From Prevotella sp. (lineage in GTDB: Bacteria; Bacteroidota; Bacteroidia; Bacteroidales; Bacteroidaceae): a stretch of DNA of 64,000 nucleotides. The translations under genes and the position numbers were made by a program. Within the stretch, counting starts at the first letter, position 1. Every line of letters starts with the position of its first letter. The notes beneath the pieces are model-generated. The model was not told where the DNA came from. It saw only the letters and a list, made by a program, of their open reading frames with translations, and made no database searches. The stretch covers positions 248,001 to 312,000 of the forward strand of contig JAFZIY010000017.1 of assembly GCA_017554105.1 (NCBI GenBank), given 5' to 3'. Below, in pieces: positions 3,722 to 52,870 of the stretch.

Positions 3722-3771
3722 CTAGATTTTTCTAGATAATCTAGATAGTCTAGGCAATCTAGGATATCTAG
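3722..3771. repeat. CTAG array, 9-bp period
   Basis: Six CTAG tetramers start at 3722, 3732, 3741, 3750, 3759 and 3768, i.e. 9 bp apart after the first. Spacer bases are AT-rich. A second array of the same period lies at 5911-5972. The gene-free stretch 3638-3770 holds nothing else recognised. Confidence 0.8.
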
Positions 3772-3898
3772 AAACAAAAGAAGCGCACCAAAAAAGTGCG
3801 CTTCTTAAAGTGGAGCTGGCGGGAGTCGCGCTCGGCTTTGCCGCTTTTACAAAGCGAAGCGACTAAAAGAACCCGCACGCGGGGAGATGACCAGAGGC
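3771..3898. repeat. 128-bp tandem unit 1: degenerate tmRNA 3' end plus terminator
   Basis: First of two 128-bp direct repeats that precede the true tmRNA 3' end. The unit starts with the terminator hairpin AAGAAGCGCAC / GTGCGCTTCTT and continues with the last 18 nt of tmRNA. It then departs by a 41-bp segment inserted inside what would be the T-arm, resuming with AACCCGC. Copies 1 and 2 differ at one visible base (CCCGCACGC versus CCCGCGCGC). Confidence 0.85.
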
Positions 3899-4026
3899 GA
3901 AACAAAAGAAGCGCACCAAAAAAGTGCGCTTCTTAAAGTGGAGCTGGCGGGAGTCGCGCTCGGCTTTGCCGCTTTTACAAAGCGAAGCGACTAAAAGAAC
4001 CCGCGCGCGGGGAGATGACCAGAGGC
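3899..4026. repeat. 128-bp tandem unit 2: degenerate tmRNA 3' end plus terminator
   Basis: Second copy of the unit at 3771-3898, in the same orientation and directly adjacent. It abuts the genuine terminator and 3' end of the tmRNA gene, which share the first ~58 bp of the unit. Read on the minus strand, the inserted part can fold: AGTCGC pairs with GCGACT around an internal hairpin. Confidence 0.85.
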
Positions 4027-4033
4027 GAAACAA

Positions 4034-4062
4034 AAGAAGCGCACCAAATAAGTGCGCTTCTT
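4034..4062 (-). terminator. tmRNA terminator
   Basis: Perfect 11-bp stem AAGAAGCGCAC / GTGCGCTTCTT with a 7-nt loop just beyond the tmRNA 3' end. The same hairpin recurs in the two 128-bp repeats. Confidence 0.8.
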
Positions 4063-4066
4063 AAAG

Positions 4067-4464
4067 TGGAGCTGGCGGGAGTCGAACCCGCGTCCAAACA
4101 GGGAAACCATACGCTTTCTACACGCTTATTCCAGCCTTCGGTTTTCGTGCAGTAGCAAGACCTGGACCACCAACCACTGCCTTATCCTCTAAATCTCATC
4201 ATACAATCGAGGCATTGCACGACTATTCCCGATTTTGCTGCACCGCTAAACCAAAGAGCCTCGGGACGACGGCTTTTGAGCGATGTCTCGTTCCGTCACC
4301 TGGTGGCGGAATTAAGCCAGTAAACTACTGTACTTCGTTTAGGCAGCGAGAGCATAGTTGTTGTTGCCAGATAAATTTGATGACCATTGGGATTTAGGAG
4401 CCACCAGCCAACGCTCCGCGTGCTTACGTACCACTCCAGCCTGCTGTCAAATCCAGTCAACCCC
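4067..4464 (-). ncRNA. ssrA: Transfer-messenger RNA (tmRNA)
   Basis: A one-piece tmRNA of about 398 nt that rescues stalled ribosomes. The 5' end GGGGTTG (4464 downward) pairs with CAGCTCC before the discriminator A at 4067; CCA is not encoded. The T-arm CGCGGGTTCGACTCCCGCC is intact. The tag frame lies at 4339-4368 and reads GGC-AAC-AAC-AAC-TAT-GCT-CTC-GCT-GCC-TAA, giving GNNNYALAA, close to known Bacteroidetes tags (G-x-x-NYALAA) with the ALAA degradation signal. Short ORFs across this interval are shadows of the RNA gene. The first tag codon is assigned by analogy; it could be one residue off. Confidence 0.93.
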
Positions 4465-20876: not shown

Positions 20877-22571
20877 TTAATTTCCGTAATATATTTCTAT
20901 CGTCTTGACACGTAATTGAGTACCACCCGAATTTGATGAGAATTCATTGTAGATGGTCAGTGTCGTGCCTTCTGCCTCTCCGTAAAGAGTATCATTTCCT
21001 GTGTAACTGCCATCACAATTGAGCACTACCTTGGCAATCTTCATGTTGTTGCCACTTACTCTGACGAGGTTCTTTGCATACATACGAACAACAGGTTCAT
21101 AGTAGGCAGGCGCATTTCTACCCTCACCTTTCTCGAAAGACACGCTGCACATGTTGGTAGATACGGCAAGTTCTGCCGTCTCTTTTACCCATCCTTGTTG
21201 TGAAAGGACAATCTCTTCCGGAATAGCATCAGAAGGTATGGTAACAGAATTGTCGGTTATTGTCACGACACTACCCTCAACGGTCTTGGTTATGTCGCCC
21301 CCTTGTCCTGAGCCGCCCTCTGTTTGTCCGTTGAGAGAATAGAGAACATTTCCGGCATCAAACTCAGGTGTGTTGCCCCTGAAGTTCTTGCACTTACCCT
21401 TGACAATTACAACGTCGCCGACCTTTATCTGGTTTGCAGAAGTAAAGTTTGCGCCACCAAGATACTTGCCACGATAAACCTGCAACTGATTGTTTTCTGT
21501 TCCGTCGTCAGAGATGAAATAAGTAGCATTACCATTTTGAACGCTTACTTCCTGAATCTTAGATATCTTACCTTTGACATATATTTCGTCAGTCAATTGT
21601 CCATCTGCCATTGGGGTGATGAGAGCCAATGCGGCAGCAACGTTATAAGGATCGTTTTGTACACCGGAGCCCTCTGGGTCGCCTGCAGGAGTTTCCTCTG
21701 CATATTGCCCGTTAATCATATATATAGAACTTCCAGTGTCGAACTCAGGTGTATTGCCCTTGAAGTTCTTACACTTACCCTTAACAATCACCTCGTCGCC
21801 GACCTTTATCTGGTCTTCAGAAGTGAACGATTTACCTCCAAGATACTTGCCACGATAAACCTCCAACTGATTGTTTTCTGTTCCGTCGTCAGAGATGAAA
21901 TAAGTAGCATTACCATTTTGAACGCTTACCTCCTGAATCTTAGATATCTTACCCTTGACGTATATTTCGTCTGTTATTTCTCCATCTTTCATTGGGGTGA
22001 TGAGAGCCAATGCGGCAGCAACGTTATAAGGATCGTTTTGTACACCTGTTCCTTCTGGTTCGCCGAGAGGAACTTCCTCTGCGTATTGCCCGTTGAGCAT
22101 ATATAGAGCACTTCCTGTATCGAACTCAGGTGTATTACCCCTGAAGTTCTTACACTTACCCTTGACAATCACCTCGTCGCCGACCTTTATCTGGTCTTCA
22201 GAAGTGAATGGCTTACCTCCAAGGTACTTTCCATGATATACCTGTAACTCATTATTGGTACTTCCATCATCGGAAATGTAATAATCTGCGCTACCATAGC
22301 TCAGATCAATGTTTGAAATGGCTGATATTTTACCCTTCACAAAGATGACTTCTGTCGTCTCACCGTCAGCCATGGCCTTTATCATTGTCAGCGCCGCAGC
22401 AACGTTATACGGGTCATCTACCGTTCCTGTACCCTCTGGGTCACCGATAGGAACTACCTCTTTGCCACCATTGCCCTCGGGGAACCCGTATGGTGCAGGA
22501 ACATCCTCGCAACTTGATAGTGTGAATACTGCAATAGCAAGCATCATCACTGAATAGATTATTTTCTTCAT
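20877..22571 (-). CDS. Lipoprotein with three tandem 127-residue OB-fold-like repeats
   Basis: 564 residues from MKKIIYSVMMLAIA; upstream in-frame ATG rejected because the signal peptide starts here. Lipobox TLSSC. Three near-identical repeats begin with G(D/E)PEGTG..DPYNVAAAL and run through VKGKIS.I, YFISDDG, VYRGKYLGGK, QIKVGD(E/V)VIVKGKCKNF(R/K)GNTPEF; the DNA period is exactly 381 bp. The pattern resembles the OB-fold domains (DUF5689/DUF6359-like) common in Bacteroidetes surface lipoproteins near nucleases. A C-terminal ~140-residue beta-rich domain follows. Such OB folds may bind nucleic acid or carbohydrate; which is unknown. Last gene of the TonB-receptor operon. Confidence 0.75.
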   Translation of the reverse strand: MKKIIYSVMMLAIAVFTLSSCEDVPAPYGFPEGNGGKEVVPIGDPEGTGTVDDPYNVAAALTMIKAMADGETTEVIFVKGKISAISNIDLSYGSADYYISDDGSTNNELQVYHGKYLGGKPFTSEDQIKVGDEVIVKGKCKNFRGNTPEFDTGSALYMLNGQYAEEVPLGEPEGTGVQNDPYNVAAALALITPMKDGEITDEIYVKGKISKIQEVSVQNGNATYFISDDGTENNQLEVYRGKYLGGKSFTSEDQIKVGDEVIVKGKCKNFKGNTPEFDTGSSIYMINGQYAEETPAGDPEGSGVQNDPYNVAAALALITPMADGQLTDEIYVKGKISKIQEVSVQNGNATYFISDDGTENNQLQVYRGKYLGGANFTSANQIKVGDVVIVKGKCKNFRGNTPEFDAGNVLYSLNGQTEGGSGQGGDITKTVEGSVVTITDNSVTIPSDAIPEEIVLSQQGWVKETAELAVSTNMCSVSFEKGEGRNAPAYYEPVVRMYAKNLVRVSGNNMKIAKVVLNCDGSYTGNDTLYGEAEGTTLTIYNEFSSNSGGTQLRVKTIEIYYGN

Positions 22572-31687: not shown

Positions 31688-31720
31688 CTGCTTGATTCTC
31701 AAGATGCCCCAAGTGGCTTA

Positions 31721-31784
31721 ACAATGTTATTAACTTTGTTGAACAATGTTATTAACTTTGTTCGACTATGTTATTAACTTTGTT
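31721..31784. repeat. 22-bp-period palindrome array (GTTATTAAC core), 3 units
   Basis: Three units start 22 bp apart. Each has the core GTTA-T-TAAC flanked by AACAA (or a variant) and TTGTT, making a near-perfect palindrome. The same array, with the same left flank (TGGCTTAACAATG), is at 49015-49078. Each unit also contains TAACTTTG, a match to the -7 box. Confidence 0.8.
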
Positions 31785-31850
31785 CCGCCATTTGGCATGT
31801 ATTGCAATCCGTTTTCTCGTTTTTTAACTGTTAAGAAACAATAAATAGTG

Positions 31851-38280: not shown

Positions 38281-38600
38281 ATTATTCATGTTTATTTACG
38301 TTCCAATTACGTTTTAATGTTCTCCGCTAATTACCGCTAATGTAACGATATTTGACATAAATACTTTTTAAAACGTAAATGTCCGTAAATGAAACGTAAA
38401 TGCTCGTAAATAAATATTTTCGGTAATTCGCGTTTCATTCGCGATAATTATCGGAGCCATTTATAAGATATTCGCGTTTATTTACGTCTCATTTACGACA
38501 ATTAACGTTCGAGCATCCTCCGCAAATTACCGAGAATTACACGCAAATACTTTTTTAACGTAAATGACCGTAAATGGAACGTAAATGGTCGATAATACTT
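38281..38600. repeat. CGTAAATG box cluster, helically phased
   Basis: Gene-free stretch with ten CGTAAAT boxes. One run of four starts at 38374, 38384, 38395 and 38405; another of three at 38559, 38569 and 38580; three inverted copies (ATTTACG) occur near 38294, 38480 and 38491. Spacing alternates 10 and 11 bp, about one helical turn. The 28-bp triplet at 38374 matches one at 52797 in 27 of 28 positions. No coding potential is credible across 38177-38911. Confidence 0.8.
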
Positions 38601-38645
38601 TTTTTCGGCAATTATCGTTTCATTAGCGTTAATTTGCGGAGTAAA

Positions 38646-48836: not shown

Positions 48837-49014
48837 GCGAATCAAACCTTTCTCATTCGCCAAACGAGAAATCCGCAATCTTTACTCTAAGGAAATAATG
48901 TGATTCATGATACCCACAATCCCAAGTATAAAGTTGTAGAGACGAATCTCTATAAATATGCACTGAAATTATGATTTGATGCAAACCTTTTTGCAAGAGA
49001 TGTCAAATGGCTTA

Positions 49015-49078
49015 ACAATGTTATTAACTTTGTTCAACAATCTTAATAACTTTGTTGAACAATCTTATTAACTTTGTT
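49015..49078. repeat. 22-bp-period palindrome array (GTTATTAAC/CTTATTAAC core), 3 units
   Basis: Three units start 22 bp apart (ATG/ATC at 49018, 49040 and 49062). The first is identical to units at 31721-31784, including the TGGCTTAACAATG flank; the second and third have CTTA in place of GTTA. Confidence 0.8.
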
Positions 49079-49251
49079 CGGCGTTTTATATGCCTTTTGT
49101 AACTCATTTAGTATCAACGGGTTACAAAGGGGTAAAAATTCGGTCACCAAACACCGAATTTTCTGCATATTTATGCCTTGTTGAAAGGGCGAAAAAACAC
49201 TGTGTTTTGTTTTTTATCGGTGCAACGTTTTACTATTTTAATTATTTCCAT

Positions 49252-49308: not shown

Positions 49309-52300
49309 ATGGAGATAAAAGACCTATTGGGTGAATATGCCAAGTCGAAGCAGGTCTCTGCGCTGGCACACTTACTGGAAGACATATCCTCGGAGAGCGT
49401 TTTCCTGCAAGGACTAATGGCTTCTGCCGCACCGATGATGTTCGCCGCAGCGGCTTTGAAGTCACCAAAAACGATACTATTCATACTGCAGGATGCTGAT
49501 GAGGCAGCCTATTTCTATAATGACCTGAAGCAGATGATGGGCACGGAGGCAGTACTCTACTTCCCCTCTTCCTATCGTCGGCAGGTGAAATACGGACAGA
49601 AGGACCCGGCAAACGAGATTCTCCGTACCGAGGTGCTCACCCGATTGCAGAATGCCAGCGGCACATTATATATTGTCAGCGAGCCTTCTGCCGTTGCCGA
49701 ACTGGTGGTATCGAAGAAGATTCTCGACGAGAGGAGCATCTCGCTAAAGGTGGGACAGACAATAGATGTCACACAACTGCGCCACGATATGCTCGACTTC
49801 GGATTCACGGAGGTTGACTATGTATATGAACCAGGGCAGTTCGCATCACGCGGAAGCATCGTCGATGTGTTCAGTTACAGCAGTGAATATCCTTACCGCA
49901 TCGACTTCTTTGGTGATGAGATAGACTCGATACGTACCTTCGAGGTGCAGAGCCAGTTGTCGCGCGACCGCAAGGACAGCATACGCATAGTGCCTGAGAT
50001 GACTTCCCTGAGCAACGAGAAGACTCCATTCCTGCAGTTCTTGCCAGCCGATGCCATCATAGCAATGAAGGACTTCCTTTATGCTCGCGAGGTAATCGAC
50101 CGCATCTACCGCGAAGGGTTCTCACAGCAGGCACTGGCGGAGCGCATGGAGGGAATGACGGAAATGGAGCAACAGGCACTGATTGTGCAGATGCAGGCAG
50201 ACCAGATGCTATGTCCCGGTACGCTGTTTACGGAGGATGCGCTACGGTTCAGACGGATAGAGTTCGGCACCAAACCCACAGGAACGCCGAAGGCAACACT
50301 GAAGTTCAACATCTCTCCACAACCTTTACTGCACAAGAACTTCGACCTTCTGAAACAAACTCTCGAGGACTATACGCTCAAGGGATACAAACTGTTTATC
50401 CTTGCCGACAGCAAGAAGCAGCAGGAACGACTTAAAGAGATTGTCAGCGAGGAGTTCACACCCGTGAGTCCCACTGTTCACGAGGGATTCGCAGACAACA
50501 ACCTGCACCTGTGTCTGTTCACCGACCATCAGATATTCGACCGTTTCCACCGCTACAGCCTGAAGTCCGACGCAGCGAGGGCAGGCAAGATGGCTCTCAC
50601 TATGAAGGAACTGCAGGAGATGGAGATTGGCGACTATGTGGTGCATGTCGACTTCGGAGTGGGTAAGTTCGCCGGACTGGTGCGCACTCCTATCGGTAAT
50701 AGTTATCAGGAGGCTATCCGCATCGTATATCAGAACAACGACAAGGTGGATGTGTCGATACATTCACTGTACAAGATAAGCAAATACCGCCGCCACGACA
50801 CCGACAAGCCTCCACGTCTCTCGACACTCGGAACGGGGGCATGGGACCGACTGAAGGAACGCACGAAGAAGAAGATAAAGGATATCGCGCGCGATCTCAT
50901 AAAACTGTATGCCGCCCGTCGGCGCGAGAAGGGATTTGCTTTTGCCGCCGACTCATTCATGCAGAATGAACTGGAGGCAAGTTTCCTCTATGAGGACACA
51001 CCCGACCAACTGAAGGCAACCAATGATGTGAAGGCAGACATGGAGGCTCCACGCCCTATGGACCGTCTCGTTTGCGGTGATGTGGGATTTGGAAAGACCG
51101 AGGTGGCGGTGCGTGCCGCATTCAAGGCAGCATGCGACTCGAAGCAAGTGGCACTGATGGTGCCCACCACGGTGCTTGCATATCAGCATTACCAGACATT
51201 CAAGAGTCGTCTGCAAGGCATGCCGGTGAGGGTGGATTATCTCTCACGTGCTCGCTCGGCGAAGCAGACCAAGCAGGTGCTTGACGACCTTCGAGACGGC
51301 AAGATAGACATCATCATAGGCACCCACAAGCTTATCGGCAAGACGGTGAAGTTCAAAGACCTCGGACTTCTCATCATCGACGAGGAGCAGAAGTTCGGTG
51401 TGGCAGTGAAAGAAAAACTGCGCAAGATGAAGACTAACGTCGATACACTTACCATGAGTGCCACGCCGATACCGCGAACACTGCAGTTCTCGCTCATGGG
51501 AGCACGCGACATGAGCATCATACAGACACCGCCACCAAACCGATTCCCCGTGCAGACGGAGGTACACACCTTCGACAAGGAGGTGATTATAGATGCCATA
51601 AACTTCGAGATGAGCCGCAACGGACAGGTGTTCTTTGTGAACAACCGCATCAACGGACTGACAGAGATAGCACACCTCATCAACAAGTATATCCCCGATG
51701 CGCGCATCGCCATAGGTCACGGACAGATGAAGCCGGAGGAACTGGAGAAGATAGTAATGGGATTCATGAACTACGACTACGACGTTCTGCTGTCAACGAC
51801 GATAGTGGAGAACGGTATAGACATCTCGAATGCCAACACCATCATCATCAACGATGCCCACCGTTTCGGTCTCTCCGACCTGCACCAGATGCGCGGACGT
51901 GTAGGAAGAAGCAACAAAAAAGCGTTCTGCTATCTCCTCGCTCCCCCACTCTCGTCGCTCACTCAGGATGCACGCCGTCGGTTGGAGGCCATTGAGACAT
52001 TCTCAGAACTGGGCAGCGGCTTCAACCTCTCAATGCAAGACCTTGACATACGAGGTGCCGGCAACCTGCTCGGTGCGGAACAGAGTGGATTCATGGAGGA
52101 CCTGGGCTACGAGACATACCAGAAGATTCTCACCGAGGCAATGGTGGAACTGAGAGAGGAGACTCTCCCCCAGCCCCTCCCTGTGAGGGAGGGGGGCAAT
52201 CACCCTCAAAACAACGGGAAACAACAGAATCAGCACTCAAAGCATTCTGCTCCCCTCCCTCACAGGGAGGGGACGGGGGAGGGTCTTTTTGTTGCCGACT

Positions 52301-52743
52301 GCTCCATCGACAGCGACCTCGAGATGTACTTCCCCGACCCATACGTGCCGTCGTCATCGGAGCGTATGCTGCTCTATCGCGAACTCGACCTCATCAAGAA
52401 CGCCGACGACCTGAAACGCTACCGTGCCAACCTCATCGACCGTTTCGGTCCTGTTCCCCGCGAGGGTGAGGAACTGTTACAGGTGGTTGCGCTGCGAAGG
52501 ATAGGACGACGGCTGGGATGTGAGAAGATAATGCTCAAGCAAGGGCAGATGATTCTCTATTATCCTGCCAACACTATGAGCCCGTATTTCCAGAGCGCAA
52601 CGTTCGACAAGATGATAAGTTACATGACTGTCAACCTGCGCCGCTGCAAACTTCGCGAAACACCCAAGCGTTCAATGGTCATCAGCAACGTCACATCGGT
52701 GAGTCAGGCAGTAGGTATCCTACGCGACATCGAGAAACTATAA
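49309..52743 (+). CDS. mfd: Transcription-repair coupling factor Mfd, with an in-frame palindromic insertion
   Basis: 1144 residues. UvrB-like N-terminal module (FILQDADEAAYFYNDLKQ, FPSSYRRQVKYG), the CarD/RID-like RNA-polymerase-binding segment GDYVVHVDFGVGKFAGLV near 440-460, then RecG-like helicase: Walker A VCGDVGFGKTEVAVRAA near 587-604, DEEQ box LLIIDEEQKFGV, SATPIPRTLQFSL, HGQMKPEELE, TTIVENGIDI and HQMRGRVGRSNK. The C-terminal TRCF domain follows. Residues ~951-993 (LPQPLPVREGG...LPHREGTGEGL) come from a REP-like palindrome at 52161-52285, placed between the helicase end and the TRCF domain. The frame is maintained, so the protein is probably functional. Confidence 0.96.
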   Translation: MEIKDLLGEYAKSKQVSALAHLLEDISSESVFLQGLMASAAPMMFAAAALKSPKTILFILQDADEAAYFYNDLKQMMGTEAVLYFPSSYRRQVKYGQKDPANEILRTEVLTRLQNASGTLYIVSEPSAVAELVVSKKILDERSISLKVGQTIDVTQLRHDMLDFGFTEVDYVYEPGQFASRGSIVDVFSYSSEYPYRIDFFGDEIDSIRTFEVQSQLSRDRKDSIRIVPEMTSLSNEKTPFLQFLPADAIIAMKDFLYAREVIDRIYREGFSQQALAERMEGMTEMEQQALIVQMQADQMLCPGTLFTEDALRFRRIEFGTKPTGTPKATLKFNISPQPLLHKNFDLLKQTLEDYTLKGYKLFILADSKKQQERLKEIVSEEFTPVSPTVHEGFADNNLHLCLFTDHQIFDRFHRYSLKSDAARAGKMALTMKELQEMEIGDYVVHVDFGVGKFAGLVRTPIGNSYQEAIRIVYQNNDKVDVSIHSLYKISKYRRHDTDKPPRLSTLGTGAWDRLKERTKKKIKDIARDLIKLYAARRREKGFAFAADSFMQNELEASFLYEDTPDQLKATNDVKADMEAPRPMDRLVCGDVGFGKTEVAVRAAFKAACDSKQVALMVPTTVLAYQHYQTFKSRLQGMPVRVDYLSRARSAKQTKQVLDDLRDGKIDIIIGTHKLIGKTVKFKDLGLLIIDEEQKFGVAVKEKLRKMKTNVDTLTMSATPIPRTLQFSLMGARDMSIIQTPPPNRFPVQTEVHTFDKEVIIDAINFEMSRNGQVFFVNNRINGLTEIAHLINKYIPDARIAIGHGQMKPEELEKIVMGFMNYDYDVLLSTTIVENGIDISNANTIIINDAHRFGLSDLHQMRGRVGRSNKKAFCYLLAPPLSSLTQDARRRLEAIETFSELGSGFNLSMQDLDIRGAGNLLGAEQSGFMEDLGYETYQKILTEAMVELREETLPQPLPVREGGNHPQNNGKQQNQHSKHSAPLPHREGTGEGLFVADCSIDSDLEMYFPDPYVPSSSERMLLYRELDLIKNADDLKRYRANLIDRFGPVPREGEELLQVVALRRIGRRLGCEKIMLKQGQMILYYPANTMSPYFQSATFDKMISYMTVNLRRCKLRETPKRSMVISNVTSVSQAVGILRDIEKL
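52161..52285. repeat. REP-like double-hairpin element inside mfd
   Basis: 37-bp terminal inverted repeats (33 of 37 matching by eye), each containing the hairpin CCCCTCCCT-GTG-AGGGAGGGG, enclose a 51-bp centre. The same two-inward-hairpin architecture as the RAYT-flanking elements, but a different hairpin sequence. Lies within the mfd reading frame. Confidence 0.85.
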
Positions 52744-52870
52744 TCACAAAAAAAGTATTTACGTTTCCTTACATAATTTACGCTTTTCTATTATAGCGTA
52801 AATGTCCGTGAATGAAACGTAAATATTAGATAATAAATAAATGTAATTGCGTACTATTAGCGATTATTAG
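52741..52870. repeat. CGTAAATG box triplet and AT-rich flank
   Basis: Boxes start at 52797, 52807 and 52818 (10/11-bp phasing, the middle one CGTGAAT); inverted TTTACG words precede. A TTAGCGATTATTAGCGGA segment mirrors CCGCTAATTACCGCTAAT in the 38 kb cluster. Occupies the gap between mfd and asnA stop codons; no terminator clearly visible. Confidence 0.75.

Follow-up and report, generated by a model that had tools for sequence, protein, structure and literature searches.

The window analysed here is the whole stretch of 64,000 nucleotides from Prevotella sp. (contig JAFZIY010000017.1), and it contains an mfd gene with a pair of inverted repeats inside its reading frame. The features of this locus, by position in the window, are as follows.

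49309..52743, plus strand: mfd, the gene for the transcription-repair coupling factor, with an uninterrupted frame of 1144 aa (from the ORF, Pfam and E. coli Mfd 2eyq).
52160..52286, no strand assigned: whole inverted-repeat element, two triplex-type motifs with their tails outward; frame product TLPQPLPVREGGNHPQNNGKQQNQHSKHSAPLPHREGTGEGL.
52160..52198, plus strand: 5' arm, a C-rich tail and the CCCCTCCC stem; its minus-strand complement is a 9-triplet motif with one mismatch.
52199..52247, no strand assigned: interior between the arms, alignable with the interior of the insert in relative G028.
52248..52286, minus strand: 3' arm, where the plus strand reads CCCCTCCCT-CAC-AGGGAGGGG-ACG-GGGGAGGGT; a 9-triplet motif without mismatch, which also has a G-quadruplex pattern.

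The two arms are 39 nt each, 90% complementary and spaced by 49 nt, and within each of them there is an inner hairpin, CCCCTCCC...GGGAGGGG. A preliminary description of this DNA had placed an in-frame palindrome in an otherwise complete mfd, between the helicase and TRCF domains, and all of this was upheld. The ORF continues uninterrupted for 1144 codons across the element, its product contains the Mfd domains (UvrB_inter, CarD_TRCF_RID, DEAD, Helicase_C and TRCF in Pfam), and the insert corresponds to about residues 952-993, with the Pfam TRCF domain beginning at 1003. The product matches E. coli Mfd 2eyq with an E-value of 2.4e-191, and the named organisms with related Mfd proteins are Prevotella and kin. 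The alignment with the E. coli protein is broken between query residues 949 and 988, facing E. coli chain residues 990 and 995; this break, together with the start of TRCF at 1003, places the insert in the joint preceding D7, which we take to be the TRCF domain, so that the repeat lies where the translocase module meets the TRCF domain. The peptide predicted from the insert, which would be produced as part of Mfd, is rich in Pro, Gly and Gln. The RNA fold of 52150-52296 has an energy of -93.3 kcal/mol (z -8.7) and the DNA fold of the segment a z of -6.9, with 0 of 200 shuffles as good in either case, and the DNA may itself adopt such a structure.

Other repeats are also present in the window. 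Tandem 22-nt repeats around AACAATGTTATTAACTTTGTTC were found at 31688-31815 and 48982-49109, the second of which stops some 200 nt ahead of the mfd start. Repeats of the CGTAAATG type are located at 52791-52839, 38368-38416 and 38553-38601, one copy being immediately downstream of mfd, and near-identical 128-nt tandem repeats, along with repeats spaced 381 nt, occupy 3771-4084 and 21324-22385.

The arm had been expected to occur elsewhere in the genome, and copies of its family were found across the source genome (G000). The family model, R1, has 38 positions and was built from 13 copies; it is sequence-only because RNAalifold gave no pairs on the 13-copy alignment. At least 134 matches were obtained in G000 at E<=0.5, and 107 were retained at E<=0.04, having scored 150 of 735 first-look candidates, so more copies may exist. 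The 107 copies form about 87 elements (68 single, 18 pairs and one triple), and all but two of the 18 pairs, 16 in number, are facing with the tails outward. Among the 27 matches dropped for E above 0.04, 10 overlap a copy already counted; including the 17 weaker matches that stand apart gives 124 copies in 98 elements, with 73 single, 24 pairs (21 facing) and one triple. Additionally, at three places in G000 (C29:360246, C2:1016 and C24:198685; L236, L237 and L238) a CCCCTCTCCCGCAGAGAGGGGC subfamily is followed by a T run, resembling intrinsic terminators made from the same repeat. In the 80-genome search, where at most 84 candidates were scored per genome under stricter filters than in the G000 census, R1 matches at E<=1e-5 were found in at least 25 of 80 genomes, all of them among the 48 genomes of the genus (at least 25 of 48), with 0 of 32 from elsewhere in the order among the candidates scored.

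The structure of the unit was examined in the 107 retained copies only, as were G-quadruplex patterns and position within ORFs. Taken as a purine third strand, the G-rich tail matches the stem with no mismatch in 73 of 107 copies and with at most one in 104, compared with 3% and 19% of tail shuffles, respectively; since R1 was built from 13 copies, the copies share their tail partly through selection by the model. Both mfd arms pass this stem-tail rule (G*G:C, A/T*A:T, antiparallel). The stem and tail also covary across 61 distinct combinations, in which the third base is other than G opposite a stem A in 67 of 71 cases and opposite a stem G in 31 of 417, in a register chosen to maximise G-G contacts. 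A G-quadruplex pattern is found in 60 of the 107 copies, against 0.4% of base shuffles, and was set aside as the description of the unit because the triplex rule covers more of them (104). Intrastrand-triplex motif is a more fitting description of the unit than REP. It has the build of BoxC/PIT/TM_ECO, with a C-rich stem, a short loop, a G-rich stem, another short loop and a third G-rich strand, and it has facing pairs and dispersed copies in common with BoxC/TM_ECO (PMC4666352). However, the TM_ECO pattern given there, CCCTCNCCCN3-6GGGNGAGGGN3GGGNGAGGG, has an exact match in 0 of 107 copies, the nearest having 3 mismatches and the mfd arms 4. Holder et al. (2015, PMC4666352) counted TM_ECO in proteobacterial genomes and report that every copy in E. 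coli MG1655 is intergenic, whereas the copies in this Prevotella relative are also located within genes.

For assignment to an ORF, an element had to have an open frame of 25 codons and coding-like codons on each side. This was observed for 17 of the 87 elements, the mfd pair included, and for 11 of the 17 the position is within a Pfam domain, or between the Pfam domains, of a single protein: a DegT aminotransferase, aminopeptidase P (pepP), SufD, an alpha-amylase, a beta-galactosidase, a GH127 protein, asparagine synthase (asnB), alanyl-tRNA synthetase (alaS), an acyltransferase, a DUF5675 protein and Mfd. In the remaining six, either the domain match does not reach the repeat or there was no domain match, and wrong starts or false ORFs may account for some of these; six more borderline cases were noted by inspection only. 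Genes seem to hold fewer elements than their share of the genome, which fits selective removal of most in-gene insertions. The family peptides are rich in Pro and Gly, with no single conserved peptide across copies, and a copy has on average 5.17 of 6 frames open, compared with 3.98 for random 35-mers of the window.

Four of the other host genes were compared with relatives. The cleanest site lacking the repeat in relatives is, by alignment, asnB, where it is missing from three of three relatives, the nearest one included: G028 and G064 do not have the 11 residues, and G022 has other extra residues. In alaS the repeat is absent from six of six relatives, G028, G006 and G064 being short and G022 and G016 having other extra residues; the same alaS loop carries a single triplex motif in G000 and a long inverted heptamer array in G060. 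Also absent from six of six relatives is the pepP repeat, its place being occupied by about eight other residues. In sufD, for which 32 of 34 loci could be parsed and 2 could not, one motif is present in G000 and a facing pair in G028, with none in the other 30. Two neighbouring SufBD-type genes of G000 (C17:118439-121453, L233) contain three counted repeats on the same strand, one near the start of the first gene and two in the second (SufD), one of which is faced by a weaker match at 120773.

For mfd itself, 65 of the 71 genus relatives gave a strong Mfd match and the remaining six a weak one at best, and the alignment includes 66 genus rows (these 65 and G000) plus four rows of the order. 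A fixed linker interval across the genus rows has 35-36 aa in 35, is shorter in 2 and longer in 29 (at least 40 aa in all 29), and has 58 aa in G000. Judged by eye from DNA and peptide, repeats of the mfd-type family occupy the linker in 10 of the 66 (L009, L010, L012-L015, L017, L019, L026 and L056) and not in the other 56. By this comparison, the mfd segment of G000 is an insertion, as had been claimed, since most aligned relatives are without it. The expected gap of about 42 residues in relatives was also found, although not at that size: relative to the short linker, whose own sequence is missing in G000, only about 22 residues are gained on balance. In L017 the repeat has decayed and no longer obeys the triplex rule, and the other nine occupied linkers retain at least one motif with at most one third-strand mismatch, in L014 only in a 7-nt stem. 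Inverted arms are significant in 7 of the 10, L056 having a single motif.

The linker was also analysed in named genomes, where 64 of 80 Mfd loci could be parsed (16 were not parsable by pattern) and L091, Prevotella sp. RGIG7592, has a perfect repeat pair. Over the resulting 134 linkers (70 from the first genome set and 64 from the named genomes, sets that may overlap), an inverted repeat at p<=0.01 is present in 11 of the 36 long linkers, against 1 of the 98 short linkers, and 8 of these 11 belong to the mfd-type family. The other three of the 11, L028, L035 and L095, have purine-rich heptamer arrays facing each other. Such facing arrays (CTCAACC, GGAGGAA), found in these Mfd linkers and in the alaS of G060 (L305), constitute a second class of in-frame insert. 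By sequence, then, the mfd linker of other species holds related or different inverted repeats.

On the Mfd tree, with all 70 rows labelled as having the repeat or not, there are eight label changes, seven of them forced by well supported branches (gains or losses), and clustering of the label is weak, 37 of 500 shuffles giving a count as low. A single gain without loss is incompatible with this tree. A conserved short linker is common to most rows that have no repeat, which favours repeated gains, though decay is seen too. The inserts of G000 and G028 can be aligned along both the arms and the interior and thus look like one shared insertion. Mfd identity outside the linker is 93.6% between G000 and G028 and 87.9% between G000 and G060; at odds with these values, the tree groups G000 with G060 (100/84) and leaves G028 outside. 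The linker of G060 is long and has no palindrome, so if the Mfd tree is correct, G060 would have lost or replaced the insert.

Here it is proposed, with a probability of roughly 0.78, that the mfd segment is a tolerated pair of a non-autonomous, dispersed triplex-type repeat that altered a protein linker. The inserted unit would be a facing pair of the repeat, presumably mobile, each unit a purine-type intrastrand-triplex motif, and it would have entered the mfd frame in an ancestor common to G000 and G028. Its survival may be due to a stop-free frame, a peptide rich in Pro, Gly and Gln, and landing in a joint between translocase and TRCF (D7) that is probably flexible, where an added segment could be harmless. 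The facing arms in mfd contrast with the mostly single elements of G000 (68 of 87, or 73 of 98 with the weaker matches), and simple tolerance does not explain this contrast.

Instead of being only tolerated, the insert may have been co-opted. D7 of Mfd restrains UvrA binding, and a longer Pro/Gly linker could tune its docking. The position of the insert, just ahead of the TRCF domain in the alignment break that faces chain residues 990 and 995 of the E. coli protein, is suitable for this, and the 29 genus genomes with long intervals are in line with it; however, the long linkers are dissimilar to one another, and this explanation seems improbable.

Still less probable is a role as a roadblock, in which a hairpin or triplex in mfd stalls or ends transcription, Mfd thereby senses its own level and the insert is kept by selection. 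The very stable fold and a TTTTTGTTG just after the hairpin are consistent with it, as is the presence at the same place of significant inverted repeats made from the unlike heptamer arrays. Family repeats are also scattered over the tree in 10 of 66 genus mfd linkers, against 2 of 32 sufD loci, both from the lineage of G000, in genome sets that differ. The linker would then be a selected landing site for polymerase-blocking structures, at which unrelated inverted repeats recur and enable transcriptional self-regulation of Mfd. However, 35 of the 66 genus genomes have the plain short linker, the close kin G060 has no palindrome, similar motifs are found in many unrelated genes, and among the 36 long linkers no more than 11 contain an inverted repeat that is significant. 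The terminator scan, with a loop limit of 8 nt, reported none at mfd, and purine-motif triplexes are described as unable to form in RNA (Holder 2015, PMC4666352). Self-regulation of mfd through the segment is unlikely, and so is the selected landing site.

The window also encodes a Y1 transposase (RAYT, ORF at 289-1073) with inverted GTAG palindromes (TGTAGGGGCGAACCCC...) on both sides, arranged like a REPtron of another family, and the mfd element could have been a GTAG-type REP spread by this enzyme. The mfd arms have a different sequence, and GTAG/CTAC is absent from both (it is found somewhere within 6 nt of the match in 33 of 107 copies). The search for the CGTC tag was negative as well, with none in the 5' arm and GACG in the 3' arm only in the loop ahead of the third strand; CGTC/GACG occurs within 6 nt in 4 of 107 copies. 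A Y1_Tnp search of the genome gave two matches, neither flanked by the mfd-type family in the stretches read, where other palindromes are found instead, and ownership of the repeats by a RAYT was rejected. These differences make a GTAG-type origin very improbable, and they bear out the suggestion that the mfd hairpin, being unlike the RAYT-flanking family, represents another one. A mobilising enzyme for the mfd-type family was not found, nor was a target-site duplication. In G028, three of seven inspected pairs, chosen for having their tails inward, are within an outer, MITE-like inverted repeat starting with GGTAATTATATACTATTTGACC or nearly so, which suggests that the repeats may be carried by other elements. 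A chance palindrome of a C/G-rich coding stretch, where C and G runs raise random pairing, or an assembly error is the least credible origin, given that 0 of 200 shuffles match the RNA or DNA fold, that the same insert is present in the relative G028 and that family copies occur elsewhere in the genome.

Palindromes within reading frames have published precedents, in Rickettsia (PMC10969869) and, in the form of REPs, in repair genes (PMC3733652). The Rickettsia palindromic elements are reviewed as being about 150 bp long and inserted in frame into protein genes that are unrelated to one another (PMC10969869), and like the copies described here they are located in otherwise complete genes; however, the host is another, the likeness is one of arrangement, and the mfd-type copies have no one conserved peptide. 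The earlier comparison with Rickettsia was thus apt as an analogy, mfd being only one of several genes with such inserts. REPs that keep the frame of an ORF had been reported, a large number of them in genes for replication and repair such as those for UvrABC, UvrD, RecBCD and Pol I, and two Xanthomonas have different REPs at about one recB site (Di Nocera 2013, PMC3733652); the words Mfd and Prevotella do not appear in the main text of that report. These GTAG/CGTC REPs are also short palindromes in frame in ORFs, but they have the tag beside the stem, whereas the mfd arms do not and no cognate RAYT was found for them. In titles and abstracts, a coverage that mostly excludes subscription journals, there was no description of these elements in mfd, nor of a triplex-motif family in a Prevotella relative, of its in-frame copies in core genes or of recurrent repeats in the mfd linker.

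In the Prevotella group, repeats built like the intergenic intrastrand-triplex motifs of E. coli can occupy core protein genes in frame, and some protein loops carry different repeats in different species. The natural insertions, along with relatives free of the repeat, provide a set for asking how selfish DNA adds segments to proteins, and the same set is suited to the question of whether DNA structure within a repair gene affects that gene.
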